23,623 bases of DNA from a virus, in IMG/VR virus record IMGVR_UViG_3300030002_000762, positions 1 through 23,623 of that record. One strand, given 5' to 3'. Each line of letters begins with the position of its first letter. The stretch's first letter is position 1. The position numbers and the translations under genes were made by a program. The notes under the pieces are model-generated. The model worked only from the letters and a program-made list of their open reading frames with translations. It was not told where the DNA came from and did no database searches. Positions 4,263-21,327 of the stretch are shown here, one piece after another.

Positions 4263-4270
4263 GCATAGGT

Positions 4271-4300: not shown

Positions 4301-4328
4301 GTGCTCCCCCTACTCGAAGGAGATCCTG

Positions 4329-4880: not shown

Positions 4881-4907
4881 GACCTGTCGTCACTGTGAGT
4901 ATGAACT

Positions 4908-4948
4908 GAGGGAGGTTAGGTAATGTCTACCTTTCCTCCCTCTTTCTC
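4908..4948 (+). terminator. Rho-independent terminator or attenuator
   Basis: GAGGGAGG (4908-4915) pairs with CCTCCCTC (4935-4942). An inner AGGTA/TACCT pairing (4918-4922 with 4928-4932) extends the hairpin, and TTTCTCT follows. It lies between the low-complexity protein and the gene at 4969. Confidence 0.7.
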
Positions 4949-4968
4949 TAGGTCTGGGGTATTCATAG

Positions 4969-5607
4969 ATGAAGCTACAACCGATTGATGATTTTGTCAA
5001 GGCGGGGTTTCAAGAGCGGATGCAGCAACAGTTCAAGCGTCCGATGATCTATGTAACCTCTCCGGATAAGAGCCGTACTGTTGAGCATATGCTTGACGGG
5101 AAGCGACTGGAGTATCCGTACTTGACGGCGTTGATGCAGTTATCACCGAACACAGAAAGCTATAACCCTAATTTCATTAGTAGGAAAGGGTTGGTAGCAT
5201 TGGTCGACGCAGATGGGCTCACTGCACATCGTGTCCGCATCTTGCCAACGAACTTCGATGTTGAGATCACCTACTACACGAACAAGTTCTCTGGGCCTGA
5301 AGACGACAACGTGTCCTTCTTCATACGCAGGTGGCTGTTCGCTAGACGCAATGGTTCATTGTCCTTCACGATCAACTACGGAAGGCTGAAGTCAGGGATC
5401 CAAGTAACCGCGTCGGATCAAGTTCCTTTCACTCCGAGGGACGCACCTACGGAGGGCATTTCAGAGTATCAAGTAACAACCTCAGCGACGATACACGGCT
5501 ACATAAGTGAACCAGTCTTGGGCACAGTCGGAATCGTGAACACAGTAGCCCTGCTCGAAGCAGAGGGTCTTTCCGGTGGGCAATTTTTCCCTTTTGAAAG
5601 AGGATAG
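4969..5607 (+). CDS. Probable neck or tail-completion structural protein, 212 aa
   Basis: Not recognised by family. The protein mixes alpha and beta with an N-terminal helix (IDDFVKAGFQERMQQQFKRP), a central beta region (RVRILPTNFDVEITYYTNKF near residues 87-106) and a long beta-rich C-terminal half. There are no membrane segments or catalytic motifs. It sits between head genes and the tail sheath. In contractile-tailed phages this position usually holds neck, tail-terminator or head-tail connector proteins, so that role is inferred from order only. The ATG follows a GGGG about 10 bases upstream, a weak ribosome site. The gene ends 4 bases before the next ATG. Confidence 0.75.
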   Translation: MKLQPIDDFVKAGFQERMQQQFKRPMIYVTSPDKSRTVEHMLDGKRLEYPYLTALMQLSPNTESYNPNFISRKGLVALVDADGLTAHRVRILPTNFDVEITYYTNKFSGPEDDNVSFFIRRWLFARRNGSLSFTINYGRLKSGIQVTASDQVPFTPRDAPTEGISEYQVTTSATIHGYISEPVLGTVGIVNTVALLEAEGLSGGQFFPFERG

Positions 5608-5611
5608 TCCT

Positions 5612-5842
5612 ATGTTGGTTATCAACACAAACAATCACGCAGTAACAGTCAAGATCCAAACACCCGAAGGACCAGACACGGTTCACATTCAGGCCAAGGG
5701 TCGCGTGAATCTCGGTGAGGGTCGTACCGTTGACTCAAACTGGAAAGCACAGCACGGCGCTGGCGTACGGATTCCTGCACTGACTGAAACACAGACGGCC
5801 ACTCCTTCTGTTCCTGCAACCCTTCCCGCTAGCGAGGACTAA
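5612..5842 (+). CDS. Small hypothetical protein, 76 aa
   Basis: The start is ATG 5612, chosen over further upstream in-frame starts because AAAGAGGA (5597-5604) lies 7 bases before it. The first 45 residues look like a small beta domain (MLVINTNNHAVTVKIQTPEG, then HIQAKGRVNLGEGRTV). The tail is Thr/Pro/Ala-rich and probably flexible (TETQTATPSVPATLPASED). It fills the gap between the neck-like gene and the tail sheath, with its stop 3 bases before the sheath ATG, so it is likely co-translated with the sheath. A minor virion or chaperone role is possible; nothing identifies it. Confidence 0.7.
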   Translation: MLVINTNNHAVTVKIQTPEGPDTVHIQAKGRVNLGEGRTVDSNWKAQHGAGVRIPALTETQTATPSVPATLPASED

Positions 5843-5845
5843 GCC

Positions 5846-7777
5846 ATGGCCGAAATCGTAAAACGTGCATCGGACATTCGCACCAAAGAGCTGAATTTCT
5901 CCCAAGTGCTGATCTCCCTGTCTTCCTCGATAGCTTGTATGCCTATCGTGTCAAAGCAGGGCTCGCCGTTCCCCAAGCACTTCACCAACAATGTCGACTA
6001 CACGTTCGAGTACGGATCTCCGAATCCTTCGATCTCCATGTCCATCCAAATGGGCCTGGACTACTTCACTGAAGGCACAGACCTTTGGGGCTTGCGCGTT
6101 ACCGGTCAGGGTGCCAAGTATTCTGCCATCCTCATGTACCAGGACGGCGCAGTCACAAAGCTGATCCCTGTGTCCGCCGGCATCGTCGATCCTCTGAACG
6201 TCGACTGGAACGCGTTGCTGCCGAAAGCCAATACGGAAGCCATTGCCCTGTTCTATCCGAATCGTGGTCCAGGTTCGTATGGTGACATCTTCGGCATCGG
6301 TATCAGCACCAAGAACCTGACGACTCCTGCAAACATCTCTGCGGTGTCCCATTCGACTGGTGGCTTCCTCCCAGCTTCCACGTACTCCTACCGCATCGCT
6401 GCGTTGGGCCAGAACGGCGAGACGCTGGCAAGCGCCCCTGCTGAGGTCATCATTTCCGCTGCCGGTGTGACGAACTCCGTTTCGATCACTTGGGATGCAA
6501 TTGACAATGCAATCGGCTACGCAGTCTATGGTCGTGCCGACGGCTCTGGTTGCCTAGCGACTGTTGGTGCAGGCACCACGAGCTTCGTGGATGCAGGTAC
6601 TATCACGGCAGACGTTGCGCATCAACCGATCACTGATCCTGCAGATCTTGCAGCTCAGCTCGAAACGTTTGATGTGCAGTTGTTCGACACTTCAGCGAAT
6701 CTCACGACTCCAGCTGAGACCTTCAGTTGCACGCTTGATTATGCAATGGACGCCTCAGGTGCACAGTCCGAGCTGGAAGATCGCATCAATCCGTTCAGCC
6801 AGTATCTGAAGGTCGTGAGCAATGCGGCAGCTCTGATCGAATTCCCGAAGGTAACCGCGTGCCAGTTGCAGAACATGGCCGGTGGCAATTCGGGCGCAGC
6901 TCCGACAAGCTACGAGATCGTCAAGGCAATGCAAGTGTTCAGGAACAAGCAGTTGTATCGCGTGAACACCTTCATCAACGCGGGCTTTTCTGATCCAATC
7001 GTGCAGAAGGCATTGGACAGCATTGCTCAGTATCGTGGCGATGCGGTTGCGCTGTTGGATGTTCCATCTGCCAAGCAGAAGTTCCAGTCGGCTATCGATT
7101 ATCGTCGCCTCGAGCTGAACTTGAACAGTACGTACTCCGCCCTGTTCTGTCCGGACATCTTGGAAGCCGACTTGACGAACGGTCGGCAGATCTATGTGCC
7201 GTTCTCTGGTATGGCTGCTGCGTTGCTTGCACGTACCGATCGAGTCAGTGATCCTTCGCGTAGTCCAGCCGGTTTGAATCGTGGTTTGATCGATGCTCTC
7301 AAGCAGCGTTATCAATACGACGATCCACAGGCCTCCGCACTGTTCGAGGCACAGGTCAACTACATTCGTACCTTCTCCGGTGCGGGTATGGCCTTGTGGG
7401 AACAACAGACCTTGGCCAACGAGTTCAGTGCGCTGTCCTGGCTGAACGTCCGACGGATCACCAACGTTATCAAGACCGCCAGTTACGACTACTTGCTGTA
7501 TGCGTTGCAAGAGCCGAACAGCGATCACCTGAAGCGTTCGATTGTCGATGGCTTGACGACGTATCTGCAGAACCTGAAGAACAACGACTCCTTGTCGGAC
7601 TTCAACGTGGTCTGTGACAACACGAACAACAGCCTTGCGGTTGCGAACGCTGCGATCTTGGTTGTTTCGATTGTGTTGGTGCCGATGCTTGCTGTGCATG
7701 AGATCCAGTTGCAGATGATCATTAGCAAGCAGGGCGTGTCGTTCAAGGAAGTTCTGCGTAAAGCGGGCAACCAGTAA
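5846..7777 (+). CDS. Tail sheath protein with inserted FN3-like domain, 643 aa
   Basis: This is the contractile tail sheath subunit, which polymerises around the tail tube and shortens during infection. The C-terminal region is the best evidence: a region like DGLTTYLQNLKNNDSLSDF, a VVCDNTNN stretch and a final VHEIQLQMIISKQGVSFKEV strand pattern match the conserved sheath core that interlocks neighbouring subunits. The N-terminal about 155 residues form another sheath-type domain. Residues about 160-262 look like a fibronectin type III or Ig-like insertion (TYSYRIAALGQNGETL, then SVSITWDAIDNAIGYAVYGR). Such insertions usually face outward on the tail surface. The length is in the range for T4-like sheaths. 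A GAGG lies about 10 bases before the ATG. Confidence 0.93.
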   Translation: MAEIVKRASDIRTKELNFSQVLISLSSSIACMPIVSKQGSPFPKHFTNNVDYTFEYGSPNPSISMSIQMGLDYFTEGTDLWGLRVTGQGAKYSAILMYQDGAVTKLIPVSAGIVDPLNVDWNALLPKANTEAIALFYPNRGPGSYGDIFGIGISTKNLTTPANISAVSHSTGGFLPASTYSYRIAALGQNGETLASAPAEVIISAAGVTNSVSITWDAIDNAIGYAVYGRADGSGCLATVGAGTTSFVDAGTITADVAHQPITDPADLAAQLETFDVQLFDTSANLTTPAETFSCTLDYAMDASGAQSELEDRINPFSQYLKVVSNAAALIEFPKVTACQLQNMAGGNSGAAPTSYEIVKAMQVFRNKQLYRVNTFINAGFSDPIVQKALDSIAQYRGDAVALLDVPSAKQKFQSAIDYRRLELNLNSTYSALFCPDILEADLTNGRQIYVPFSGMAAALLARTDRVSDPSRSPAGLNRGLIDALKQRYQYDDPQASALFEAQVNYIRTFSGAGMALWEQQTLANEFSALSWLNVRRITNVIKTASYDYLLYALQEPNSDHLKRSIVDGLTTYLQNLKNNDSLSDFNVVCDNTNNSLAVANAAILVVSIVLVPMLAVHEIQLQMIISKQGVSFKEVLRKAGNQ

Positions 7778-7789
7778 TCGAAGTAGAGA

Positions 7790-7818
7790 GGGGTGGGCTT
7801 TCTTAGCCATCCCGTTCT
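7790..7818 (+). terminator. Imperfect hairpin between sheath and tube genes
   Basis: GGGGT (7790-7794) pairs with ATCCC (7809-7813), and GGCT (7796-7799) pairs with AGCC (7805-7808), leaving one bulged G; GTTCTTCC follows. It lies between two genes that are normally co-transcribed, so it is likely a leaky attenuator or mRNA stabiliser. Confidence 0.45.
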
Positions 7819-7840
7819 TCCTAACCTCAAGGAGTTTTTC

Positions 7841-8344
7841 ATGAGCCGTTCCAGTCTCTACAACGTATTGGCTTTGCCGGACGCGTTTCAAACGTGGCAG
7901 TTTGATTTGTTCTTCCCGTACATTCCCGGTTGGAGTGACAACATCCCTCTGACGTACAAGTGCCAGACGACTTCCCTACCAGGCTTCAACCTCGAGCCTG
8001 TCGAGATCGCCCTCCAAGGTGTCACGAAGAAGGAAGCGGGCCGCGCTACGTACAACCACACGTTCCCTATGACGTTCCTCGAAGTCAGTGACCAGTCGAC
8101 ACGCAGAGCCTTCCGTGCTTGGCGTGAGACCTGCCGGTCGCAGAAGAACAACACGGGTTCGGTGTCGTCAGCTTACAAGGTCAATGGTCAGATCGTCCTG
8201 TACGATAACCAGCCGACCGAAACTCACACCATGATCGTGTTCGGCATGTGGCCTGAGACTGTCGATGACCTTGGCCTCGAAGGCAATTCGTCGACGGCTG
8301 GTATGCTGTCGGTCACATGTAGCTACGACTTCACCGACGAGTAG
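7841..8344 (+). CDS. Tail tube protein, T4 gp19-like, 167 aa
   Basis: This is the subunit of the inner tail tube through which DNA passes, immediately downstream of the sheath as in most contractile-tailed phages. The motif pattern TTSLPGFNLEPVEIALQG, then AGRATYNHTFPMTFLEVSD and RRAFRAWRETC, and a final beta strand VTCSYDFTDE match the T4 gp19-like tube family. The length is typical. Start ATG 7841 is set by AAGGAG (7829-7834) 6 bases upstream. A GTG at 7793 in the same frame would add 16 residues but lies inside the preceding hairpin and lacks a ribosome site, so it was rejected. Confidence 0.92.
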   Translation: MSRSSLYNVLALPDAFQTWQFDLFFPYIPGWSDNIPLTYKCQTTSLPGFNLEPVEIALQGVTKKEAGRATYNHTFPMTFLEVSDQSTRRAFRAWRETCRSQKNNTGSVSSAYKVNGQIVLYDNQPTETHTMIVFGMWPETVDDLGLEGNSSTAGMLSVTCSYDFTDE

Positions 8345-8351
8345 TAGGTCG

Positions 8352-8717
8352 ATGAAGATCCAAGCGGCTCAACGATTACGCCTGAGAGCTAAAGCTGGAC
8401 CAGACTTGTTAGATCCGGGGTTGTATTTCTCAAGGACGCAACCCCTGATCTACAAGGGCAACGAGCATGAATCCCTAGACACCTTAGCAGCCATCTTGAC
8501 ACCTGACGGTATCTCTGCGTCGGACGTCAAGTATGGGTGGCCTCGGTATCCGATCAAGTTGGCTAACGCTGCAAGCTTCGCAGGTCTAATGGCCTTGCTG
8601 CCGAGAGTGTTCAACGAGTATCGGAATGCCAAGTACTCGAAAGAGCTTAGTCACGGTCAGGGGTATGTGTTCGCAGTCACTGGTGGCTGGCTCACCATCG
8701 CAGTTCCAACGGAATAG
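8352..8717 (+). CDS. Hypothetical protein in tail gene cluster, 121 aa
   Basis: Not recognised. ATG 8352 lies 7 bases after the tube stop, with only a weak AGG upstream, so translation is probably coupled to the tube gene. The N-terminus is basic and helical (MKIQAAQRLRLRAKAG). A mixed region follows with a helix (SFAGLMALLPRVFNEYRNAK), and the end is hydrophobic and beta-like (GYVFAVTGGWLTIAVPTE). In contractile-tailed phages this slot often holds a tail-assembly chaperone or a baseplate/tape-measure partner. No motif confirms that here. Confidence 0.7.
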   Translation: MKIQAAQRLRLRAKAGPDLLDPGLYFSRTQPLIYKGNEHESLDTLAAILTPDGISASDVKYGWPRYPIKLANAASFAGLMALLPRVFNEYRNAKYSKELSHGQGYVFAVTGGWLTIAVPTE

Positions 8718-8741
8718 TATCATCACCGAAAAGGTAACTCC

Positions 8742-8882
8742 ATGAACGCAACACTTATTTTGCTGATCATCTCAGCCATCTGCTTCTTTCTTGCCGCCGT
8801 TCCGATCCCGTGGGGTACGCACGTGCAGCTTGGATGGCTCGGCATGTTCTTCTGGATCCTTACGTACATCATCGGTAAGTAA
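8742..8882 (+). CDS. Small membrane protein with two transmembrane segments, 46 aa
   Basis: A short gene with ATG 8742, preceded by AAAAGGTAA with good spacing, and ending in TAA at 8880-8882. It encodes a strongly hydrophobic segment from residue 4 to about 21 (TLILLIISAICFFLAAV). A PIPWGTHVQ turn follows, then a second hydrophobic segment (GWLGMFFWILTYII) and a terminal GK. The size and topology fit a small phage inner-membrane protein, such as a pinholin, antiholin or superinfection-exclusion peptide. No lysozyme lies nearby, so a lysis role is not supported by context. It is unusual to find it among tail genes. Confidence 0.65.
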   Translation: MNATLILLIISAICFFLAAVPIPWGTHVQLGWLGMFFWILTYIIGK

Positions 8883-8891
8883 CACTTTTCC

Positions 8892-8911
8892 GGCACTCAC
8901 TAAGTGAGGCC
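8892..8911 (+). promoter_or_regulatory. Inverted repeat between small membrane gene and next gene
   Basis: GGC-A-CTCA (8892-8899) pairs with TGAGGCC (8905-8911), with one bulged A and a CTAAG loop. No T tract follows, so it could be an attenuator hairpin. The core CTCACT-A-AGTGAG (8896-8908) is also a near-perfect palindrome and could instead be a protein-binding site. Function is unknown. Confidence 0.35.
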
Positions 8912-8957
8912 TTAAACACCCATCACACCTTAGAGTGTCGCAATATGGAGATTCAAA

Positions 8958-9710
8958 ATGTTCAAGATGAACGCGTCAACTGTAGCAGTCACCGATTACA
9001 AGATCCTCAATGATGTTCTGGCGAAAGTGATCCTGTCTTTCACCGGCAAGCAAGATGCGCACAGCATTCGTGCTGCTATCGCTCAGAAGTTCGATGGCCT
9101 GGCCGCAGTAGTGGAACATAGTTTCAAGATCGTCAAGCCCGGTGTTGCTGTCGGCTTCCTTCGTGCTAACGTGGAAGTCCGTTCCGTTGAGCCCGCAGAA
9201 CTTGCCGCCTCGTATCGCATCATGAGCTCGAACATCGTCATGAGCAACGAGGACCGCAGCCTGTGGTCGATGCAGGATGGCAAGGCCGGCAAGTTCCTTA
9301 CTCGCCAGCAACAGGAAGATCTGTCCGCTCTAGTTGAAGCTGGTGTTCACCGCACCCCCGGCATTCCAGGCCTGCGTCACTTGACGATGGCCCGCGCTGC
9401 CAAGTCTGAACTCGTTGCCTACGTAAATAGCGAAGGTGACATGGACTACGGCTTCGCAGTTGCCAACGTCGGCACCGACAAGGTTCGCCTGCTCTCCTAC
9501 AGCGCGAGGGTTGCCCGTACCATTGACTACGACTCAGTCGTATCGATCGTCCCGGTTCAGGTTGATGCTGAGCTCAAGTCCAAGCTGTCGGCGGCATTGA
9601 CTCCGAAAGAGAAGAGCGATGCCAATGCGTACTGGACCAAGCTGTACAGTTTCGCGCCTGACTACATGCGTGAAGTGATCCGTCAGGTCAACGAAGACAC
9701 CACGGCGTAA
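8958..9710 (+). CDS. Hypothetical protein, 250 aa, last gene of the tail operon
   Basis: Not recognised. ATG 8958 follows GGAG with a 7-base spacer. The protein mixes alpha and beta, with an N-terminal helix-strand region (ILNDVLAKVILSFTG), a central HSFKIVKPGVAVGFLRANVE stretch, and a later beta region (DYGFAVANVGTDKVRLLSYS). The C-terminal end is helical (AYWTKLYSFAPDYMREVIRQ). There is no signal peptide, membrane segment or catalytic motif. The gene ends 21 bases before a strong terminator, so it closes the head-tail operon. A virion structural protein is the most likely class by position. Confidence 0.7.
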   Translation: MFKMNASTVAVTDYKILNDVLAKVILSFTGKQDAHSIRAAIAQKFDGLAAVVEHSFKIVKPGVAVGFLRANVEVRSVEPAELAASYRIMSSNIVMSNEDRSLWSMQDGKAGKFLTRQQQEDLSALVEAGVHRTPGIPGLRHLTMARAAKSELVAYVNSEGDMDYGFAVANVGTDKVRLLSYSARVARTIDYDSVVSIVPVQVDAELKSKLSAALTPKEKSDANAYWTKLYSFAPDYMREVIRQVNEDTTA

Positions 9711-9839: not shown

Positions 9840-11567
9840 ATGAGCAAGAGCATTCGGGTATCATCAGACGTTGAACTTCGTGGCTCCCTGCGTTTTGGTG
9901 TCAACGCTACAGGGTTTCCTGCCGACGCAGATCTTGGCACGCAGTGGTTCAAAGATGGGGTGATGTACGCATTGCAGCTGATCGGCGGCATTCGTACTTG
10001 GTATCCATTCACCAGTCCAACTGTGTCCTATGTGCATACACAAGGTCTTCCTTCTTTGGAATGGACCGTGCAGCACAACTTGGGCGTCGCCAACACCTGG
10101 TTCCAAGTACAAGACGCTGCTGGTCATCCCCTGTATTGCCAACGCACGCCCATCGATGGCAATTCGTTCAAGTTGGAATTCACCGACTTGGCAGATGGCA
10201 CATGCGTCGTAATCGCTCCTGATTCGATTAGCGTCCCTGAGATTCAGGCTTCGCTGATTTCAGCAACGACGATGAACATCGCAGGTGGTAAAGTAGTGTT
10301 GGGTTCGGACGGTGGTCACATCGACGGCTCCCCGATCCTTACTGCTGCTACTGCTCCTGGCGGCGGCTATGTCCTGCCAGTTTCCACGCAGACGATTCTT
10401 GGTGGTGTGAAGCAAGGTGCAAACATCACTATCGGCGCAGACGGCACGATCAGTGCTCAGGCATCTTCGAACTACGAACTTCCAGTTGCCACAGCTGGAA
10501 TCTTGGGTGGCGTGAAACAAGGCACCAACGTTACGATTGCGTTGGACGGCACGTTGAGTGCTACTGTACCTAGCTTGACCTCTGAGCTGACGAATGATTC
10601 GACGTTCGTTACCGCAGTGCAGATGAACACAGCCATCACTAACCTGATCGACATGGCTCCCGAAGACTTGAATACCATCGGTGAGCTGGCCAAGCAGTTG
10701 AAAGCCGACGAGACAGGCACCGCAGCAATCCTCACCGAGCTTGGCACTAAGGCCACTACGACCTACGTGAATCAGCAGTTGGATCTTAAGACTACGGATT
10801 CAACGTTGGCACCTGTTGCCAAGAGCGGCAGTTATGCCGACCTCACGGGCAAGCCTGCGATTCCTGTAATCCCAACTCTGGTGTCTGCTTTCACCAATGA
10901 CGCAGGGTATCAAAAGGCTTCCGACGTAGCGTCAGCGATTTCTGGTAAAGCTAACACCTCCAGCCTGGCTACGGTTGCTACTTCTGGCAGTTACACCGAC
11001 TTGGCGAACAAGCCTGCGATTCCTGCAGCGTACGCATTGCCTGCTGCTTCTGCAACAGTCCTCGGTGGCGTTAAGCAAGGTACCGGTATTGCTATTGCAG
11101 CAGATGGCACGATCAGTGCAGCAGGTGGCGGTGGTGGGTCCGTAGTCAATGACGTAACGACAAACGCCTTGAACTACCCAGTGTTTGCAGATGCGATCTC
11201 GGGAACGATGAACGCCCATGTTGCTAATACCAAGTTGACGTTCAATCCTTCGACGGGTGACTTCTTCGCAACGAACGTGGTGACCAGTTCTGATGAACGC
11301 CTGAAGACGGGCGTCAAGCCTATCAAGAACGGGTTGGCTTTGGTGAATGCCATTGAGGGTGTAAGCTTCACTATGATCGATGGCGGTCAGAAGTCCTTCG
11401 GTGTCATCGCCCAGCAAATCGAGAAGATTTTGCCTGAGCTCGTGCGTACCCGCGCAGATGACGGGATGAAGAGCGTGGTCTATGATGCAATTATCGGCAT
11501 CCTTTTGTCGGCCGTCAAAGAGCTCGATGCCAAGGTCGAGAGTCTTCAAGTCAAAGTGGGAGCCTAA
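9840..11567 (+). CDS. Tail fibre with C-terminal S74 intramolecular chaperone, 575 aa
   Basis: The N-terminal domain (about 1-140) contains TQWFKDGVMYALQLIGGIRT and LPSLEWTVQHNLG, probably for virion attachment. The shaft has three fibre repeats built on LGGVKQG..I..DGT(I/L)SA starting near residues 186, 221 and 407, and two copies of SGSY(A/T)DL..KPAIP, typical of trimeric tail fibres. The C-terminal about 92 residues are a Peptidase_S74 chaperone: S484 and K489 in SSDERLK have the Ser-x4-Lys spacing of the known catalytic dyad. GVIAQQIEKILPELV and a final coiled coil (SAVKELDAKVESLQVKV) follow. In this family the chaperone folds the trimer and then cuts itself off, here expected just before S484. 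The fibre heads the host-recognition gene block. Confidence 0.9.
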   Translation: MSKSIRVSSDVELRGSLRFGVNATGFPADADLGTQWFKDGVMYALQLIGGIRTWYPFTSPTVSYVHTQGLPSLEWTVQHNLGVANTWFQVQDAAGHPLYCQRTPIDGNSFKLEFTDLADGTCVVIAPDSISVPEIQASLISATTMNIAGGKVVLGSDGGHIDGSPILTAATAPGGGYVLPVSTQTILGGVKQGANITIGADGTISAQASSNYELPVATAGILGGVKQGTNVTIALDGTLSATVPSLTSELTNDSTFVTAVQMNTAITNLIDMAPEDLNTIGELAKQLKADETGTAAILTELGTKATTTYVNQQLDLKTTDSTLAPVAKSGSYADLTGKPAIPVIPTLVSAFTNDAGYQKASDVASAISGKANTSSLATVATSGSYTDLANKPAIPAAYALPAASATVLGGVKQGTGIAIAADGTISAAGGGGGSVVNDVTTNALNYPVFADAISGTMNAHVANTKLTFNPSTGDFFATNVVTSSDERLKTGVKPIKNGLALVNAIEGVSFTMIDGGQKSFGVIAQQIEKILPELVRTRADDGMKSVVYDAIIGILLSAVKELDAKVESLQVKVGA

Positions 11568-11569: not shown

Positions 11570-12724
11570 ATGGCGTTCAATACTCAGGGGGATGGTGACC
11601 CCCTGAATGTTTATGTCACCGACCAGTGGATCATAGACCAATTTGTTGGCAGTAAGTTGTGGGCTTGGGGACATAACACCTATGGCACTCTTGGGGATAG
11701 CACAGCCGTTAATAAGAGCTCTCCCGTTCAAACTGTTGCTAGTGGGCAGAATTGGAAACAATTAGCCTGCGGTTATGGCTTCATTGCTGCTGTTAAGACT
11801 GATGGATCTCTATGGTTGTGGGGTTACAACAGCGTTGGTCAGCTCGGAGATAACTCCACAGTCACCAAGAGCTCACCAGTGCAAACAGTAGCAGGTGGAA
11901 CTAACTGGGCTTCAGTTGCCGGTAATATGTACCACACGGCTGCCATCAAGAACGATGGCTCTTTGTGGCTATGGGGACAGAACTCGGTGGGTCTTCTTGG
12001 TGATGGGACTACAGTCAATAAGAGCTCTCCCGTTCAAACTGTTGCTAGTGGGCAGAATTGGGCATCAGTTTCCTGTGGTGGCAATAACACTGCGGCCATT
12101 AAGACTGATGGCTCTCTGTGGATTTGGGGGCATAACGCCTACGGAACTTTAGGTGATAACACCGTAGGCCACAAGAGCTCTCCAGTGCAAACAGTAGCAG
12201 GTGGAAATAATTGGAAGACCGTAGCCTGTGGATACGTGCATACTGCCGCCATAAAGAATGATGGATCTCTATGGTTGTGGGGAAATAATAGATTCGGTCA
12301 GTTGGGAGACGGTACCATCTCCCATAAGAGCTCTCCAGTGCAAACCGTCTGCCAAGGAAACAACTGGAAATCCGTGGCGTGTGGTTATGCTCATACGGCA
12401 GCCATCAAGGACGATGGTTCCTTGTGGGTTTGTGGTTACAACAAACAGGGACAGTTGGGCGACGGCACTGTAGTATATAAGAGCTCACCAGTTCAAACTA
12501 TTGCTGGTGGGAACAACTGGAAATCAGTAGCATGTGGTAGTCTCTATACTGCTGCTATCAAGACTGATAGTTCCTTGTGGTTGTGGGGTAGAGATACTCC
12601 GTATGGCATGCTGGGTGATAACACTTCAGTTAACAAAAGCTCTCCAGTGCAAACCATCTGCCAAGGAAACAACTGGAAGTCCGTTGCTTGTGGTTATTTT
12701 CATACTGCCGCTCTTACCTTCTAG
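11570..12724 (+). CDS. RCC1-repeat seven-bladed beta-propeller protein 1, 384 aa
   Basis: Probable virion-exposed host-recognition protein. Residues 1-about 24 are a short N-terminal segment (GDGDPLNVYVTDQW). The rest is seven RCC1-like repeats of about 50 residues, each with a (S/K)LWxWGxN core, a GQLGD-like turn, a KSSPVQTV strand, and a WKSVACGY..HTAAIK strand. Seven LWxWG cores are countable, enough to close one propeller. Blade 6 has Cys in place of the second Trp (LWVCGYN). The ATG has GGGAG 8 bases upstream and starts 2 bases after the fibre stop. RCC1 propellers usually bind protein or nucleic-acid partners. Use as a phage adhesin is inferred from its place after the fibre. Confidence 0.88.
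   Translation: MAFNTQGDGDPLNVYVTDQWIIDQFVGSKLWAWGHNTYGTLGDSTAVNKSSPVQTVASGQNWKQLACGYGFIAAVKTDGSLWLWGYNSVGQLGDNSTVTKSSPVQTVAGGTNWASVAGNMYHTAAIKNDGSLWLWGQNSVGLLGDGTTVNKSSPVQTVASGQNWASVSCGGNNTAAIKTDGSLWIWGHNAYGTLGDNTVGHKSSPVQTVAGGNNWKTVACGYVHTAAIKNDGSLWLWGNNRFGQLGDGTISHKSSPVQTVCQGNNWKSVACGYAHTAAIKDDGSLWVCGYNKQGQLGDGTVVYKSSPVQTIAGGNNWKSVACGSLYTAAIKTDSSLWLWGRDTPYGMLGDNTSVNKSSPVQTICQGNNWKSVACGYFHTAALTF
11711..12061 (+). repeat. 45-bp exact duplication within RCC1 gene 1
   Basis: Positions 11711-11755 and 12017-12061 are identical over 45 bases and flanked by mismatches. They encode the NKSSPVQTVASGQNW segment of two blades. The use of CTCCCG for Ser-Pro and of ASGQ instead of the usual AGGN/T is shared only by these two copies, which points to recent blade copying. 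Confidence 0.85.
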
Positions 12725-12734
12725 GAAATTCTAA

Positions 12735-13883
12735 ATGTTCAATACTCTTGGGGACGGTGATCCCCTTAGTGTGTATGTCACCGACCAGTGGGTCGTAGAC
12801 CAGTTCCTAGGAACCAAGCTATGGACTTGGGGTCGAAATAGTTACGGTCACCTTGGTGATGGGACTACAGTCAATAAGAGTTCTCCAGTTCAAACCGTAG
12901 CTGGGGGTACAAACTGGAAACAAGTAGCCTGTGGCACTAACTTCACTGCCGCTGTTAAGAATGATGGCTCCTTGTGGTTTTGTGGCTACAACTGGTTCGG
13001 CCAACTTGGAGATAACACTAGAACGCACAAGAGCTCACCAGTACAAACTATAGCTGGTGGGAACAACTGGAAGTCAGTAGCATGTGGTTATGCACATAAC
13101 GCGACCCTAAAGACTGATGGATCTTTGTGGGTGTGGGGATTAAACACTAAAGGTCAGCTCGGAGATAATTCCACAGTCCATAAAAGCTCACCAGTTCAAA
13201 CCATTGCTGGTGGCACCAATTGGGCTCAGGTAGCATGTGGTTATGACCACACTGCAGCTATCAAGAACGACGGATCTTTGTGGCTTTGTGGATACAACAG
13301 GCAGGGGCAGCTCGGTGACAATACTAGAGTAGACAAATCATCTCCAATTCAAACGGTTGCCGGTGGCAATAATTGGGCTCAAGTAGCGTGTGGTAATTGG
13401 TTTACAGCGGCCATCAAGACTGATGGTACTCTTTGGACTTGGGGCTATAATGCCAGTGGTCAGCTTGGAGATGGTACTGTAGTAGCAAAGAGCTCTCCAA
13501 TCCAGACGGTAGCTGGTGGAAACAACTGGAAGTCAGTAGCATGTGGCACCTATAGTACTGCTGCCATCAAGAACGATGGAACGTTATGGCTTTGGGGCTG
13601 CAACCCCTACGGACAGCTTGGAGATAACACTGTAGTCTATAAGAGTTCTCCAATTCAAACGGTAGCAGGTGGCACCAATTGGAGGTCAGTAGCAAGTGGC
13701 ATAAATCACACTGCAGCTGTGAAGATTGATGGAACCCTATGGATTTGGGGTCTGGATAATTACGGCCAACTCGGAGATGGTACTGTAGTAGCAAAGAGCT
13801 CTCCAATTCAAACGGTAGCTGGTGGCACCAATTGGAAATCGGTAGCGGCTGGTTTTTATCATACTGCCGCTTTAACACTTTAA
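12735..13883 (+). CDS. RCC1-repeat seven-bladed beta-propeller protein 2, 382 aa
   Basis: Tandem paralogue of the preceding gene. The first 28 residues align almost throughout with those of protein 1 (GDGDPLSVYVTDQWVVDQF), so the two arose by duplication of a whole gene. Seven LWxWG-type cores are countable (KLWTWG, SLWFCG, SLWVWG, SLWLCG, TLWTWG, TLWLWG, TLWIWG); two have Cys for Trp. The later blades share a KSSPIQTVAGG variant with AATT or AATC, marking local copying. The start follows AGGAA and lies 10 bases after the previous stop. Role as for protein 1: a probable tail-tip or capsid-surface binding protein. Base composition looks more A+T-rich by eye than the structural genes upstream. 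Confidence 0.88.
   Translation: MFNTLGDGDPLSVYVTDQWVVDQFLGTKLWTWGRNSYGHLGDGTTVNKSSPVQTVAGGTNWKQVACGTNFTAAVKNDGSLWFCGYNWFGQLGDNTRTHKSSPVQTIAGGNNWKSVACGYAHNATLKTDGSLWVWGLNTKGQLGDNSTVHKSSPVQTIAGGTNWAQVACGYDHTAAIKNDGSLWLCGYNRQGQLGDNTRVDKSSPIQTVAGGNNWAQVACGNWFTAAIKTDGTLWTWGYNASGQLGDGTVVAKSSPIQTVAGGNNWKSVACGTYSTAAIKNDGTLWLWGCNPYGQLGDNTVVYKSSPIQTVAGGTNWRSVASGINHTAAVKIDGTLWIWGLDNYGQLGDGTVVAKSSPIQTVAGGTNWKSVAAGFYHTAALTL
13314..13376 (+). repeat. 63-bp block shared between RCC1 genes 2 and 3 (copy A)
   Basis: Matches 15113-15175 at 62 of 63 bases, including the unusual AAATCATCT coding of Lys-Ser-Ser where most blades use AAGAGCTCT. The shared synonymous choice argues for recent exchange between the two genes rather than protein-level constraint. 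Confidence 0.85.
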
Positions 13884-13905
13884 TCAACCAAAGGAGTAAC
13901 AACTC

Positions 13906-14556
13906 ATGAACTTCGCATTCGTAGGTGGCACCTCGGTTCACTGGAGTCCTGTAGCTTGGACGAAACGCAAATTTGAAAACTACTTGAAAGAGGAATTCGG
14001 CATCGAGGCTGAACTGCCTGAGACTACTGAGGTCGCCGTGCATGTGACGGACACGATCCACATCCTTCCGATCACGGACGTTGCGACGCCAGCTTTCAAC
14101 GCGAAGATCGAACGCTTGGCCGGCCCATTCTACAATTTCCGTGCTGAAGACTGCGACATGTACTACACCGTCGAAGACATGCCTATTGATGCAGTTCGCA
14201 ACATGCTCATTGCTTTAACGGCTGATGAACGGTACAAGAAGGAAGTGTCTGGTACGTCGGTTGTTATCAATGGCGTTACCATTCCTATCACTACGGCACG
14301 CGGTGCTCGTGATATTTTCGGTCAAGGGTTGTTGCTTGGCAGTGATGGTGCCGCTTGGAAATTCGACGGCGACCTGTGGGTTACGTTGAGCAACGCCGAC
14401 CTGAAGACGATCGTGCAGGCTATCATGGCAAAGGTTCAGGAATCTTTCGACTGGGAAAAAGCGAAGAAGGCAGAGCTCGATGCCTGCGTTACTTTGGCCG
14501 ACCTGGATAAGGTTGAAATCGTTACGCCCCAAGCTGCGCCGGCGGTATCTGTCTGA
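13906..14556 (+). CDS. DUF4376-containing tail-fibre-assembly-like protein, 216 aa
   Basis: The C-terminal half (about residues 107-205) fits DUF4376, a domain common in proteins encoded next to phage tail fibres. It shows SGTSVVINGVTIPITTARGA, then LLLGSDGAAWKFDGDLWVTL, a helix NADLKTIVQAIMAKVQESFD and the end TLADLDKVEI. The N-terminal half (1-about 100) is an alpha/beta region I do not recognise. Proteins of this layout are usually thought to act as fibre assembly chaperones or small virion parts; the exact job is unproven. AAGGAGT lies 9 bases before the ATG. It sits between RCC1 genes 2 and 3, so it may help fold or attach the propeller proteins. Confidence 0.75.
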   Translation: MNFAFVGGTSVHWSPVAWTKRKFENYLKEEFGIEAELPETTEVAVHVTDTIHILPITDVATPAFNAKIERLAGPFYNFRAEDCDMYYTVEDMPIDAVRNMLIALTADERYKKEVSGTSVVINGVTIPITTARGARDIFGQGLLLGSDGAAWKFDGDLWVTLSNADLKTIVQAIMAKVQESFDWEKAKKAELDACVTLADLDKVEIVTPQAAPAVSV

Positions 14557-14572
14557 TAAAAGGACTAGAATG

Positions 14573-14604
14573 GTTGGTGCTTTATTGAAAGGTACCAACT
14601 CTTT
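14573..14604 (+). terminator. Weak hairpin before RCC1 gene 3
   Basis: GTTGGT (14573-14578) pairs with ACCAAC (14594-14599) across a 15-base loop, followed by TCTTTCT. A six-base stem with a large loop is at most a leaky terminator. Confidence 0.35.
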
Positions 14605-14629
14605 CTACTTTAATTGCTAAGGAAGTATG

Positions 14630-15853
14630 ATGACTCAGCCAGTAAAGCTCTTCGTAAATGCGTCAAATACAAATTCAGCGTCAGGTACGGATGTCGGTAG
14701 CCTCTTGGTTGACAAGTCCTACTTGCTGGATGTTTACCCGTCGTTGGTACCGTGGATCAAAGCCCCTGCCCTGTGGCTGTGGGGCTATAACATCAACTAT
14801 CAACTTGGCGATAATACGGCAGTCACCAAGAGCTCTCCAGTTCAAACCGTTGCTGGTGGCGCCAATTGGCAACAAGTAGCATGTGGCTACTACCATACTG
14901 CAGCCATCAAAACTGACGGCACTCTATGGGTGTGGGGATTCAGCATGAACGGAGGTATTGGCGATAACACTATGCTCACCAGAGCCTCACCAGTTCAGAC
15001 TATAGCTGGAGGAACCAACTGGGCTCAGGTAGCTGTCGGGAATAGGCAAACGGCAGCCATAAAGAACGATGGATCCTTGTGGCTGTGGGGTGGGGACGCC
15101 TATGGCCAGCTAGGTGACAATACTAGAGTAGACAAATCATCTCCAGTTCAAACGGTTGCCGGTGGCAATAATTGGAAACAAGTCTCAGCTGGCTACGGTC
15201 ACACGGCTGCGATTAAGACAGATGGAACTCTTTGGGCTTGGGGTTGGAATCCCTACGGCCAACTTGGAGACAACACCAGAGTCAGCAAGAGCTCGCCAGT
15301 TCAAACTATTGCCGGTGGAACGAACTGGGCTCAGGTAGCATGCGGACAGTATAGTACTGTAGCTGTCAAGACTGATGGTTCTTTATGGACTTGGGGAAAC
15401 AATAGTAACGGCGAGCTCGGAGATAACGCCATAAGCGTCCCTAAGAGCTCTCCAGTACAAACTGTCGCAGGAGGCAACAACTGGAAACAAGTTGCCTTCA
15501 GTCCAGCTGGCTACCACGTAGCAGCCATCAAGACCGATGGCACTCTTTGGACGTGGGGAAATAATGTCTATGGCAATCTAGGTCAAGGTACCATAGTTAA
15601 CGGTGCCTCTCCTGCGCAAACAGTAGCCGGTGGAAACAACTGGAAATCGGTAGCATGTGGCTCTTCTCACACGGCGGCTGTCAAGACTGATGGATCCTTG
15701 TGGACATGGGGTAGAGACACTTATGGCCAACTCGGAGACAACACCAGAGTCCATAAAAGCTCACCAGTTCAAACCATTGCTGGTGGCACCAATTGGAAAG
15801 CTGTGGCAGGTGGATACAACTATACGGCAGCAATCTCCGATTCAAACTTCTGA
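14630..15853 (+). CDS. RCC1-repeat seven-bladed beta-propeller protein 3, 407 aa
   Basis: Third paralogue. Two adjacent ATGs exist (14627 and 14630); 14630 is preferred because AAGGA (14619-14623) is then 6 bases away. The N-terminal segment is longer and different (about 45 residues, with SGTDVGSLLVDKSYLLDVYP) but keeps a short core that can be aligned to those of the other copies. Seven LWxWG cores follow (ALWLWG, TLWVWG, SLWLWG, TLWAWG, SLWTWG, TLWTWG, SLWTWG). Blade 5 carries a small insert (NAISVPKSSP), and the next interval has FSPAGYHVAAIK. Same inferred role as the other propellers, but the different N-terminus suggests a different attachment partner or site. Confidence 0.88.
   Translation: MTQPVKLFVNASNTNSASGTDVGSLLVDKSYLLDVYPSLVPWIKAPALWLWGYNINYQLGDNTAVTKSSPVQTVAGGANWQQVACGYYHTAAIKTDGTLWVWGFSMNGGIGDNTMLTRASPVQTIAGGTNWAQVAVGNRQTAAIKNDGSLWLWGGDAYGQLGDNTRVDKSSPVQTVAGGNNWKQVSAGYGHTAAIKTDGTLWAWGWNPYGQLGDNTRVSKSSPVQTIAGGTNWAQVACGQYSTVAVKTDGSLWTWGNNSNGELGDNAISVPKSSPVQTVAGGNNWKQVAFSPAGYHVAAIKTDGTLWTWGNNVYGNLGQGTIVNGASPAQTVAGGNNWKSVACGSSHTAAVKTDGSLWTWGRDTYGQLGDNTRVHKSSPVQTIAGGTNWKAVAGGYNYTAAISDSNF
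15113..15175 (+). repeat. 63-bp block shared between RCC1 genes 2 and 3 (copy B)
   Basis: Partner of 13314-13376 with one base difference. It lies in the third blade of RCC1 gene 3, whereas copy A lies in the fourth blade of gene 2, so the exchange was not between equivalent positions. Confidence 0.85.
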
Positions 15854-15860
15854 CATTCCT

Positions 15861-16361
15861 ATGGCTACTCAAACTCTTATTCATGCAAAACACTTCGTTG
15901 CCCCTAACCTCCTTCAAGTTGTGCAGGATCTTGTGTTTCTCGAGAACCAGCTTGGGATGGAGGTCAAGGACTTCGAGTACATAAGCCCACAAGCTTCTGA
16001 GCAGATCAAGTCGTTGCTTGAAGGCTTTGAACCTTCGTCGTCGGTCTTCCGTAAGCCCCACCCCTTCATTCACTTTGAAGACTGCTCGGAAGATAATCAG
16101 TGGTTGGTTGTGGCCGCATTAGACTACGTGGTGTTTCGTACCTGGAGACATCTCGAGACCGGCTTTACGTCAGCATTGGAAGTTCCTGACGTGACGACGT
16201 TTATCTCTGAGTGCTTCAAGCCTTCAAGTTGGGCAGTCGTGAACACTGTTATTGTATCACCCGGAGACTGCCTGTGTTTTCGTCCGTGGGAGTTTCATTC
16301 TATCGAGACTTCTGGCATCGTGCATATGTTCTATACGAGGAAGCATAATGTTCAAAACTAA
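15861..16361 (+). CDS. Double-stranded beta-helix protein, possible Fe/2-oxoglutarate oxygenase or cupin-like, 166 aa
   Basis: The start is ATG 15861, 8 bases after the RCC1 gene 3 stop. An H-x-E pair (H71, E73 in PFIHFEDCSEDNQW) is followed by a WLVVAALDYVVFRTWRHLETG strand region. A distal H146 lies in VSPGDCLCFRPWEFHSIET, and R160 lies in the final strand. This is the order of an H-x-D/E...H metal triad with a late Arg, as in 2-oxoglutarate/Fe(II) oxygenases. The PGD...H stretch also resembles cupins. The activity is unproven; it may be a degenerate, non-catalytic member. The gene overlaps the start of RCC1 gene 4 by 14 bases, so it is tightly coupled to the propeller genes. If active, it might hydroxylate a neighbouring virion protein. 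Confidence 0.6.
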   Translation: MATQTLIHAKHFVAPNLLQVVQDLVFLENQLGMEVKDFEYISPQASEQIKSLLEGFEPSSSVFRKPHPFIHFEDCSEDNQWLVVAALDYVVFRTWRHLETGFTSALEVPDVTTFISECFKPSSWAVVNTVIVSPGDCLCFRPWEFHSIETSGIVHMFYTRKHNVQN

Positions 16362-17499
16362 TAGCGGTACCCAGACACTAGACTCTCTGTTCGTCCGAAA
16401 AGACGCACTGCTCTCCGTGGGAAGTCTGTGGCTATGGGGACAGAACTCGATGGGTCAGCTCGGAGATAACACATCATCAGCCAACAAGAGCTCTCCAGTT
16501 CAAACAGTAGCAGGTGGAAATAATTGGAAAACGCTCACAGATAATGGGTCAACCACTATGGCAGCCATTAAGAATGATGGCTCGCTGTGGCTGTGGGGTA
16601 GCGGCAACCAAGGCCAGATCGGAGATAACAATCTAGTCTCTAGGAGCTCTCCGGTTCAAACTATCTGCCAAGGAACCAACTGGAAACAGGTATCATGTGG
16701 ATACAACCACACGGCAGCTGTAAAGACTGACGGCTCCTTGTGGTTGTGGGGTGGGGATAACTACGGTCAGCTTGGAGACAATACTACTGCTATTAAGGTG
16801 TCTCCAGTTCAAACTATCGCAGGTGGAAATAATTGGGCTCAGGTGTCATGTGGCAGAGGCAGTACGGCAGCCATAAAAACAGATGGTTCTCTATGGGCTT
16901 GGGGTAACAATCGATTCGGTCAGCTCGGAGACAACACTGCCAACAACAACAAGAGCTCTCCAGTGCAAACTATCGCTGGTGGCAATAACTGGGCTCAAGT
17001 AGCGTGTGGTTACGGTGCGGCTGCCATCAAGACTGATGGTTCTCTGTGGCTATGGGGCTATAATTATTATGGCCAACTCGGGGATGGTACAACCCTTAAC
17101 AAGAGCTCGCCAGTGCAAACTATTGCTGGTGGAAACAACTGGAAACGGGTATCCGTTAGTACTACTAATGCTATGGCTATAAAAACTGATGGGTCTTTGT
17201 GGACTTGGGGCTTTAATTATTATGGCCAACTCGGGGATGGTACAACCCTTAACAAGAGCTCGCCAGTGCAAACTATTGCTGGTGGAAACAACTGGAAACA
17301 AGCATCTTTAGGTACGTTGACGCAGCATACTGCTGCCATAAAAACAGATGGTTCTCTGTGGCTATGGGGTCAGAACACTGACGGCCAGCTCGGAGATGGC
17401 ACTGTCGCAACAAAGAGCTCTCCAGTTCAGACCATAGTAGGTGGCACCAACTGGAAGTCCGTAGCCGGTGGTGGGTCTCACATTGCAGCGCTAAAGTAG
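16348..17499 (+). CDS. RCC1-repeat seven-bladed beta-propeller protein 4, 383 aa
   Basis: ATG 16348 is chosen because GAGGAAG sits just upstream; it overlaps the end of the previous gene by 14 bases. A longer in-frame opening exists from 16252 but has no ribosome site. The N-terminal tag is short (SGTQTLDSLFVRKDALLSVG), followed by seven LWxWG cores (SLWLWG three times, SLWAWG, SLWLWG, SLWTWG, SLWLWG). Blades 5 and 6 share an 86-base exact repeat. The second blade interval has lost the usual SVACGY pattern (TLTDNGSTTMAAIK). Same inferred receptor-binding or virion-surface role as the other three. It closes the recognition block before the modification genes. Confidence 0.88.
   Translation: MFKTNSGTQTLDSLFVRKDALLSVGSLWLWGQNSMGQLGDNTSSANKSSPVQTVAGGNNWKTLTDNGSTTMAAIKNDGSLWLWGSGNQGQIGDNNLVSRSSPVQTICQGTNWKQVSCGYNHTAAVKTDGSLWLWGGDNYGQLGDNTTAIKVSPVQTIAGGNNWAQVSCGRGSTAAIKTDGSLWAWGNNRFGQLGDNTANNNKSSPVQTIAGGNNWAQVACGYGAAAIKTDGSLWLWGYNYYGQLGDGTTLNKSSPVQTIAGGNNWKRVSVSTTNAMAIKTDGSLWTWGFNYYGQLGDGTTLNKSSPVQTIAGGNNWKQASLGTLTQHTAAIKTDGSLWLWGQNTDGQLGDGTVATKSSPVQTIVGGTNWKSVAGGGSHIAALK
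17061..17146 (+). repeat. 86-bp exact direct repeat in RCC1 gene 4, copy 1
   Basis: Identical to 17214-17299 at an offset of 153 bases (51 codons, one blade), with mismatches on both sides. It covers the YYGQLGD turn through GGNNWK. Identity at every synonymous position marks a very recent duplication or conversion. Confidence 0.9.
17214..17299 (+). repeat. 86-bp exact direct repeat in RCC1 gene 4, copy 2
   Basis: Second copy of the 17061-17146 block, one blade downstream. The intervening parts of the two blades differ, so only part of the blade was copied. Confidence 0.9.
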
Positions 17500-17543: not shown

Positions 17544-18326
17544 ATGTCTTTCAATCAACAGTACTACTTCATTTCAGGATTGCCTAGAGCTGGTACCACT
17601 TTGCTCTCTGCAATCCTGAACCAGAATCCGAGGTTCCAAGCCTCGATCTCCGGGCCCCTAGCAAGGTTCGCCCGTGCCATCATTGACCAGTCCTCGGCAA
17701 TGTCCGGCTATCGCTATCAGTGTCCTGCTGAGAAGCGCGAATCCATTATTCATGGCATCTTCAACAACTACTACGACGACCTGAGCAAGGAAGTATTCTT
17801 TGACACTAATCGCGGCTGGTCGCTTATGCTGCCGATGCTTAAGAAGTTGTATCCATACACCAAGGTGCTCGTCTGCGTCCGAGACATCAACTGGGTGCTC
17901 GACAGTTTTGAATCTCTGTACCGCAAGAACCCGATGGACAAGCAGCTGATGATCCCTGACGAGTTCTCTGCCACCGTGTATTCGCGCTGCGACTACCTGA
18001 TGCACACCGATGCAACAGTCGGCTTTGCCTACATGGGGTTGAAGGAAGCGATCACTTCCAAAGAGAAGAACATGCTCATGCTTGTTGAGTACGAGCAGCT
18101 GTGCAAGCACCCTGAAGGTATGATGAAGGCGATCTACAACTTCATCGGTCAACCGTTGTTTGCTCATGACTTCAACAACGTTGAGTACTCCAACGACGAG
18201 TTCGATGCCGACGTGAATGTGAAAGGACTGCACACTACGCGCAAGGAAGTGTCGTTCATTCAACGCGAGATGATCCTCCCTCCGGACATCCAGCACAAGT
18301 TCGCAGGTATGGAAGTGTGGCGATAA
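17544..18326 (+). CDS. Sulfotransferase, PAPS-dependent, 260 aa
   Basis: Transfers a sulfuryl group from PAPS to a hydroxyl or amine on an unknown acceptor. The 5'-phosphosulfate loop is GLPRAGTT at residues 12-19. The 3'-phosphate site is KVLVCVRDINWVLDSF near 107-122, with R113 and S121 as the expected phosphate contacts. Length and fold order fit the P-loop sulfotransferase family. There is no signal peptide, so it acts in the cytoplasm. AAGGAG lies 9 bases before the ATG. Its TAA overlaps the ATG of the APS-kinase-like gene by one base, so donor synthesis and transfer are translationally coupled. The acceptor cannot be deduced from sequence; LPS, capsule, a virion protein or a small metabolite are options. 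Confidence 0.85.
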   Translation: MSFNQQYYFISGLPRAGTTLLSAILNQNPRFQASISGPLARFARAIIDQSSAMSGYRYQCPAEKRESIIHGIFNNYYDDLSKEVFFDTNRGWSLMLPMLKKLYPYTKVLVCVRDINWVLDSFESLYRKNPMDKQLMIPDEFSATVYSRCDYLMHTDATVGFAYMGLKEAITSKEKNMLMLVEYEQLCKHPEGMMKAIYNFIGQPLFAHDFNNVEYSNDEFDADVNVKGLHTTRKEVSFIQREMILPPDIQHKFAGMEVWR

Positions 18327-19354: not shown

Positions 19355-19945
19355 ATGGTATCTCTGATGGACCTAAAATCCCTTCCTTCCGCTAACGATA
19401 AACTGAAACTCAACATCGGTGGCGGACTGAAACGCTACGAAGGTTTTATCAATGTTGACTTTGACGAACTGACGAAGCCGGACATCGTGCATAACCTCGA
19501 GACCGATACGTTCCCTCTGCCTGATTCGTCGGTGGCCGAAGTTCGCGCATTTCATATCCTGGAACACATCGGGCAAGGTTTCTTCCACCTGATGAAAGAG
19601 CTGTATCGTGTTTGCGATAACGGTGCATTGATCGACATTCAGGTACCTCACCATCGCAGTGAGATCTTCTATGGGGACGCCTCCCATGTGCGGCCGATCA
19701 CGGTAGAGATGCTTCGGCAGTTCTCGAAGTCCTACAACGACTATCATGTCGATCAGTTCAAATCTTCAATGGGCTTTGGCAATCGACTGGGAGTTGATTT
19801 CGAGATTCTGGAATTTTCGTTCATCCCAGAAGACATTTGGAAAGAACGCTTCCAGAGTATGTCGCCGGAGCAGATCGTTGAAGTGTCTCGCAACTTCAAC
19901 AACGTCTACGGAGAGACACACGTTAAGCTGGTGGTGAAGAAATGA
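19355..19945 (+). CDS. Class I SAM-dependent methyltransferase, 196 aa
   Basis: Motif I is LNIGGG at residues 19-24, followed by GFINVDFDEL with the ribose-binding acidic residue D35. FPLPDSSVAEVRAFHILEHI contains the LEH signature seen in Methyltransf_11-like enzymes acting on small molecules, sugars or lipids. FFHLMKELYRVCDNGALIDI follows as the post-motif helix and strand. There is no DNA-methylase catalytic motif (no DPPY or PC), so it is not a restriction-type enzyme. The start lies just after the YkgJ-type stop, and its end overlaps the next gene by four bases. Its likely substrate is a sugar or surface molecule handled by the same operon. Confidence 0.82.
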   Translation: MVSLMDLKSLPSANDKLKLNIGGGLKRYEGFINVDFDELTKPDIVHNLETDTFPLPDSSVAEVRAFHILEHIGQGFFHLMKELYRVCDNGALIDIQVPHHRSEIFYGDASHVRPITVEMLRQFSKSYNDYHVDQFKSSMGFGNRLGVDFEILEFSFIPEDIWKERFQSMSPEQIVEVSRNFNNVYGETHVKLVVKK

Positions 19946-21327
19946 GTCTAGAGCAAGTAACTCAATCGTTATACAAGCTCAAAGAGAAACCTCTTGCCAT
20001 TCAAGTACTGAACGCGTTCGCCAAGCAGGCGTACCTGTGGCCTGAGTACGACGATCTCGCTAAATGCTTCTTCAAGCTCAAAGAGTACAAGGACGCAATC
20101 AAGTACTCCGAACTGGCCTTGACTACGGCATACACGATGGAGCGTAGTTGGGCGGCTCGTGCTAACCTTATCAATGTCCTCAATCACGCCAACTATCCGG
20201 AAGAGGCATTGTTCCATATTGCCAATCAGGAACGGCTTATTCCTGAGGACCAAGACACAAGACTCGAGAAGGCGTTCTCCTACTTCCTGATGAATGATCG
20301 GGATAAGGCTGAATCCATCCTGCTCAGTGAGTTGGAGCGCGATGACCTCACGACGGAAGTTCAAACGAAGATCCTCTTCAACCTTGGGACGTATTGCCTC
20401 TGGCGTGACGAGTTCCAAAAGGGTCTGAGTTTGTTCTTGCATAAGGGTCAGGAGCTGGACTACTGGCGGAAGGCAAAGTTACCATTCAAGTTTTGGGATG
20501 GGGGCATCAAGCCTGGATCGTCGATCGTCTTGTACGCAGAGGCTGGTATTGGTGACGAGATCATCAATGTGCGTTTCATGCAGACGCTTTCCGATTTGGG
20601 CATGGAACCTATTTGGTTCACGGATCGCAAAGACATGGTTGAGATCTTCAACGCCAACGGCTTCAAGGCTACCTCGGACATCAAAGTCATCCAGAGCATG
20701 GCATCAAAGGATCCATCCTTGTTGTGGACGTACCCTATGAGCTTGCCGGTCTATCTTGACCTTCAGTACAAGAACCTATGGTATGCTCCATACCTGAAGC
20801 CCTTGGAGAAGTACTGGGGTACGGCTGTATGTCTTGTGGACGAGCATGTGAAAGAAGATGCACCCAACAAGAAGTACAAGATCGGTTTGCGGTGGGCGGG
20901 CAATCCTGAATATGACCATGACTTGCATAGGTCGGTTGAGTTGAACGACATCCTTGATACTTTGATTGACACTGATGCAGAGTTGTACTCGTTACAGAAA
21001 GACTCGGCGGTCGACGACCTGATAAATAGTCGACTGAAGGTTGAGGAGCTAGGCACCAAGCTTGATTCGTTTGGCTTGACCCTGTCAGTAATCAACGAAT
21101 TGGACCTAGTCATCACTACGTGCACTTCTGTGGCTCATGCTGCTGCAGCCATGGGTAAGCGCGTATGTATTTTCGTGCCGATCAGTGCCTACTACACGTG
21201 GAGCCACTCAATGGCGCAAAGCCCATGGTACGGAGATAACGTCACAATACTCCGGCAGACGAAACCTCGAGACTGGACGGAAGCAATGTTGCAACTCAGA
21301 AAGATCTTGGCAGCAGAATTTGCATAA
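19942..21327 (+). CDS. TPR-glycosyltransferase fusion, 461 aa
   Basis: The N-terminal about 175 residues are helical TPR-like repeats (AIKYSELALTTAYTMERSWA, then a LFNLGTYCLWRDEFQKGLSL unit). A C-terminal GT-B-type glycosyltransferase follows. Its marks are a WDGG...VLYAEAGIGDEIINVRF segment near 185-212, IGLRWAGNPEYDHDLHRS at 314-331, ELYSLQKD at 347-354 and ELDLVITTCTSVAHAAAAMG at 386-405. An SPWYGDNVTILRQ-like end completes it. These are the landmarks of the bacterial TPR-glycosyltransferases related to O-GlcNAc transferase and GT9/GT41 enzymes. The TPR part normally holds the acceptor. It overlaps the methyltransferase by ATGA and is the last gene before the terminator at 21351. Confidence 0.85.
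   Translation: MSLEQVTQSLYKLKEKPLAIQVLNAFAKQAYLWPEYDDLAKCFFKLKEYKDAIKYSELALTTAYTMERSWAARANLINVLNHANYPEEALFHIANQERLIPEDQDTRLEKAFSYFLMNDRDKAESILLSELERDDLTTEVQTKILFNLGTYCLWRDEFQKGLSLFLHKGQELDYWRKAKLPFKFWDGGIKPGSSIVLYAEAGIGDEIINVRFMQTLSDLGMEPIWFTDRKDMVEIFNANGFKATSDIKVIQSMASKDPSLLWTYPMSLPVYLDLQYKNLWYAPYLKPLEKYWGTAVCLVDEHVKEDAPNKKYKIGLRWAGNPEYDHDLHRSVELNDILDTLIDTDAELYSLQKDSAVDDLINSRLKVEELGTKLDSFGLTLSVINELDLVITTCTSVAHAAAAMGKRVCIFVPISAYYTWSHSMAQSPWYGDNVTILRQTKPRDWTEAMLQLRKILAAEFA

Follow-up and report, generated by a model that had tools for sequence, protein, structure and literature searches.

Multi-copy RCC1 proteins are already known in phages, and some of them are located in virions. Large enterobacterial phages carry arrays of such genes, 13 in 121Q and 11 in phAPEC6 (PMC5259590, PMC7247149, PMC11370258), and mass spectrometry detected three tandem RCC1 proteins in W70 virions (PMC11370258) and one RCC1 protein in the GAP32 virion (PMC5259590). 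The RCC1-like proteins of phAPEC6 were suggested to order DNA (PMC7247149), a proposal echoed for W70 (PMC11370258). These arrays resemble the genes described here in that each phage has several RCC1-like proteins, some in virions, and phrog_4219 also matches our proteins; 121Q, phAPEC6, W70 and GAP32 were nevertheless absent from the 34 phage records found with protein A (E 1e-5, see below), and are only distant kin. In the open-access literature, we found no paper joining phage RCC1 proteins with a tail fibre, receptor binding or host range.

Synechococcus phage S-SRM01 (Kyanoviridae; gp334-gp338, gp344 and gp345) has a locus that can be compared gene by gene with the one analysed computationally here, which lies in a window of 23,623 nucleotides, meaning the whole stretch of viral DNA under analysis. 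Both share a tail fibre with an S74 domain, RCC1 genes of three classes (I, II and III, defined below), a DUF4376 gene between classes I and II, a sulfotransferase and a TPR gene. In S-SRM01, by contrast, gp335 is six-bladed, there is only one class I gene, several genes separate classes II and III, the strand motif is RSTPVTT instead of KSSPVQT, and the backbone is of the T4 type, with Gp23. The head and tail genes of the window are, in turn, shared up to position 9710, in content and order, with Burkholderia phage BcepSauron and Achromobacter phage Motura. The features of the window are as follows.

1130..9710, plus strand: head and tail backbone genes, Sarumanvirus/Moturavirus-like by homology and order against BcepSauron (head protein 3204-4262; sheath 5846-7777; tube 7841-8344; last backbone gene 8958-9710)
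9840..11567, plus strand: tail fibre with a C-terminal Peptidase_S74 chaperone domain (PF13884, E 8.8e-14), first gene of the cassette
11570-12724, plus strand: RCC1 protein A, class I anchor (residues 1-29, 11570-11656) and seven blades, from Pfam, blade cutting and a structure model
12735-13883, plus strand: RCC1 protein B, second class I copy (anchor 12735-12818) and seven blades
13906..14556, plus strand: DUF4376 protein (PF14301, E 1.1e-9; 30% to S-SRM01 gp336; model pLDDT 94)
14627-15853, plus strand: RCC1 protein C, class II anchor (14627-14770) and seven blades
15861..16361, plus strand: small ORF (166 aa) lacking a Pfam match, between classes II and III
16348-17499, plus strand: RCC1 protein D, class III anchor (16348-16425) and seven blades
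17544..18326, plus strand: sulfotransferase (PF13469, E 1.6e-15; 28% to S-SRM01, syntenic with gp345)
19942..21327, plus strand: TPR-like protein, last window gene matching S-SRM01 (39% to gp338; TPR matches weak, below the Pfam cut-off)

Pfam recognised 28 RCC1 repeats (PF00415) in the window, all above the cut-off and seven per ORF in A to D, and since the whole-protein RCC1 E-values range from 1e-64 to 1e-77, a chance origin of the match is excluded for these four proteins. Cutting at the LWx[WC]G core gave the same number, seven blades per protein of 47-54 aa, mostly 51 residues. The AlphaFold2 model of A (pTM 0.87) contains 28 strands, four per blade, preceded by a helical N-terminal segment, and superimposes on HERC2 RLD2, itself a closed ring of seven blades, at 1.5 A for 357 residues (Z 55.5); A is predicted to be a closed ring of seven four-stranded blades. 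Repeats in all four proteins and a closed seven-blade ring in the model of A thus identify RCC1-like domains, and confirm what a sequence-only reading of this DNA had proposed, namely four genes with seven blades each. Its count of seven LWxWG cores per protein also stands, but not their uniformity, as the core is LWxCG in three blades (A6, B2 and B4). The KSSPVQT strand, described as constant, is frequent rather than constant, with KSSPIQT, RASPVQT, GASPAQT, RSSPVQT and KVSPVQT among the other blades. The internal DNA copying that it had noticed is real: exact DNA matches between different window RCC1 genes reach 49 bp, and in D, blade 5 is almost the same as blade 6. With regard to D, the start codon is most likely the ATG at 16348 and not the TTG at 16252, as the class III anchor is free-standing only with the former. 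The end of the small ORF at 15861-16361 overlaps this start by 14 bases.

The seven-bladed fold is shared with plant UVR8, human RCC1, the RLD domains of HERC1 and HERC2, and bacterial BLIP-II (Z 33 to 55 against the model of A), which are single proteins without the phage anchors and differ in partners and functions. Kinship to RCC1 as Ran guanine-nucleotide exchange factor is claimed for the fold only, and we know of no Ran partner to be expected in a bacterial host.

Scanning viral contigs with protein B alone returned no match, whereas an alignment-based scan of IMG/VR yielded 70 loci with relatives. Most of these are metagenome contigs, where repeats can be collapsed or misjoined, and blades were counted in 138 distinct complete RCC1 ORFs, the four of the window included. 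About 129 of the 138 carry 7, 14, 21 or 28 blades: 120 with seven, 7 with 14, 21 or 28, and two that were called as eight-bladed but have seven, one blade being split by an insert. Exceptions are few: three real six-blade proteins, S-SRM01 gp335, L015 9552-10577 and L043 6277-7287, four blades in L052, 27 in L020, plus a small number of fragmentary or degenerate ORFs. Six blades are also noted for L009 4719-5750. When the recruiting ORFs of each locus were left out, 73 out of 78 were still multiples of seven. The same counting gave 7, 8, 14 and other numbers for bacterial ORFs, of which the '8' may include split end blades. The conservation of seven blades in relatives, as put forward by the sequence-only reading, is borne out; freely varying counts, which it had named beforehand as speaking against it, were not seen among the complete ORFs. 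This constancy suggests that ring closure is enforced. Seven is, however, the usual blade number of RCC1 rings, so the constancy is better seen as a feature of the fold than as a finding, and the number itself is not new.

Variation is concentrated at certain positions of the blade. Among 674 phage blades, the entropy calculated for each position peaks at 40, 41, 6, 8, 9 and 19, and the UVR8 residues described as interfacial (PMC8748919) map to these same six positions, at the dimer interface, while the buried core tryptophans of UVR8 map to position 4, which is nearly invariant in phages. In the single close pair of relatives available (L021/L036), 10 of the 18 face residues differ, compared with 15 of the 135 others. 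The idea that only phages have a hypervariable face went too far and was discarded. Because bacterial RCC1 blades vary at nearly the same positions (columns shifted by one in the second half), the variable positions appear to mark a binding face of the RCC1 fold in general, and not a phage invention.

The N-terminal anchors of the phage RCC1 relatives (25-50 residues) form three classes, which were first sorted by sequence pattern and by eye, and which class profiles then separate well, with few cross-hits. They are class-specific across phages, and the genes follow the S74 tail-fibre gene in the fixed order I, DUF4376, II, III. The full I-II-III order was found in 20 loci and partial versions in most others, with duplications such as I-I-II-III, the arrangement of the window, where class I is doubled. 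In 30 out of 31 loci, classes I and II have a DUF4376-like gene between them. In L037 and L046, other N-terminal segments precede the class I or III anchor. As no anchor was found on the non-RCC1 proteins within the loci, it is from conservation that we infer a function as pegs. The four proteins had been regarded earlier as alternative or cooperating receptor-binding proteins; the view of four alternatives is not supported, three conserved, differently anchored classes being present, one of them duplicated, which suggests that the classes are used in parallel and not as alternatives.

Anchors and propellers have followed different courses. In comparisons across genomes, anchor identity is 39.7% for members of one class and 26.5% for members of different classes, and the nearest neighbour by anchor belongs to the same class in 90 of 97 cases. 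Propellers show almost no class signal (59.9% within versus 59.6% between classes), and those of different classes in one genome are 66.0% identical. In label shuffles, neither the genome signal of the propellers nor the class signal of the anchors was reached (0/500 each); the class signal of the propellers is tiny (0.0024), yet reached by only 15/500 shuffles. The propellers are homogenised within each genome. In addition, when RCC1 genes of one genome are compared, the longest stretch of exactly matching DNA has a median of 32 bp and reaches up to 179 bp, against a median of 18 bp for genes of different genomes. Shared host selection could raise protein similarity but hardly long exact DNA tracts, and DNA exchange between the RCC1 genes of a genome therefore seems the better explanation. 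The three-anchor class structure, the gene exchange and the transfer discussed below appear undescribed in the literature searched, which does not prove their absence.

The genes are linked to tail fibres by their position. An S74 fibre lies directly upstream of class I in 26 of 28 loci, these fibres being counted with their own domain, since an iterated whole-fibre search drew unrelated ORFs; in the window, the S74 region of the fibre is 47% identical to S-SRM01 gp334. In four loci (L026, L028, L029 and L050), one, two or four propellers are built into the S74-capped fibre, and the L026 and L028 fibres have collagen-type shafts according to Pfam. The RCC1 proteins are thus adjacent or fused to an S74 fibre, as expected for receptor-binding proteins. 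The putative receptor-binding role suggested earlier is strengthened by the upstream fibre, the fusions and the variable face. We consider it rather probable that A to D are host-recognition heads of the virion, combining a peg with a recombining propeller on three sockets, and encoded by a mobile cassette. The L028 fusion (616-7998) is a single ORF of 2461 residues, in which four seven-bladed RCC1 rings are combined with shaft segments of the collagen type and an S74 domain stands at the C-terminus.

Fibres of the collagen type bearing as many as four rings would suit decorations of the virion or carbohydrate-adhering whiskers, holding the phage to surfaces or polysaccharide without choosing a host. 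The separate N-terminal domain ahead of the anchor in L037 and L046 could be read in the same way, and whiskered relatives exist among the large phages with many RCC1 genes (PMC5259590). However, defined sockets are suggested by three conserved anchor classes whose number and order next to a tail-fibre gene are fixed, and the variability of the face better suits specific recognition, which leaves the whiskers a rather unlikely explanation. The role suggested for phAPEC6 (PMC7247149) and W70 (PMC11370258), internal virion proteins that order the packaged DNA, would agree with the mildly basic pI of A to D (8.3-9.2) and with nucleosome binding by eukaryotic RCC1 (PDB 3mvd is among the structure matches). 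We regard it as improbable for the present proteins, in view of their position after the S74 fibre, the fusion into S74 fibres with collagen-type shafts, the concentration of variability on one face, and a net charge of merely +3 to +7. Still less probable is a role outside the virion, as protein binders or inhibitors within the infected cell: propellers of the RCC1 fold serve generally to bind proteins, the inhibitor protein BLIP-II aligns to the model (Z 33), and the block includes non-fibre genes such as the sulfotransferase, but the genes directly follow the tail fibre in fixed order behind S74, fusions to the fibre occur, and RCC1 proteins are present in the W70 and GAP32 virions.

Under the preferred reading as host-recognition heads, each protein would pair a closed RCC1 propeller of seven blades with a short peg at the N-terminus, which is helical in the model of A. 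Each of the three peg classes (I, II and III) would have a socket of its own on the tail or the fibre apparatus, with class I doubled in the window, and one propeller face, bearing the variable residues, would contact the host surface. Copying and exchange of propeller DNA between the genes would homogenise the frame and shuffle the face, and survival would normally require seven blades or an integer multiple of seven. All genes between the S74 fibre and the TPR gene, these two included, would travel between phage lineages as a cassette. We hold more tentatively the broader picture of a mobile system with three fixed virion sockets and interchangeable seven-bladed heads. Recombination of blades between the genes would let the phage replace its binding faces while keeping every socket, and the system would have spread among large phages that are unrelated and differ in host. 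Until now, the RCC1 proteins of phages have been interpreted as organisers of DNA, and a fixed three-anchor cassette with recombining, face-variable propellers offers a testable alternative, namely modular receptor recognition through repeat shuffling under a ring-closure constraint. The idea is directly testable, since the isolated phage S-SRM01 carries the cassette.

The backbone and the cassette of the window have different affinities. The head protein is 65.7% identical to that of BcepSauron, the sheath 50% and the tube 48%, with the order kept, which identifies a Sarumanvirus/Moturavirus-like backbone. In the compared stretches of BcepSauron and Motura (34 and 30 kb), no match to a cassette gene was found after the homologue of the gene at 8958-9710, and several window genes from the S74 fibre to the TPR gene match S-SRM01. 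A T4-type Gp23 head protein is present in 15 of 33 cassette-bearing records, and the window head protein had no match in the records of these 33 relatives, in a search run without a positive control. GC3 amounts to 0.41-0.48 in A to D versus 0.66-0.74 in three backbone genes. Given a BcepSauron/Motura-like backbone, an S-SRM01-like cassette, and differing head proteins and GC3, the cassette has probably moved between phage lineages. The RCC1 matches had initially suggested that the entire window came from a cyanophage, a view rejected on account of the Sarumanvirus/Moturavirus-like backbone.

As for the neighbouring genes, the model of the DUF4376 protein had no significant match in the PDB (the best was prefoldin-like, E 0.3), and in BFVD it matched mainly other DUF4376-type viral proteins. 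Sulfotransferase homologues occur in 40 of the loci. Right after the sulfotransferase gene of the window, positions 18317-19003 encode an APS-kinase/KTI12-like P-loop domain with a C-terminal DUF2061 predicted membrane domain, and just past the cassette, on the opposite (minus) strand, lies a DUF3164 protein (21652-22656, E 1.9e-74).
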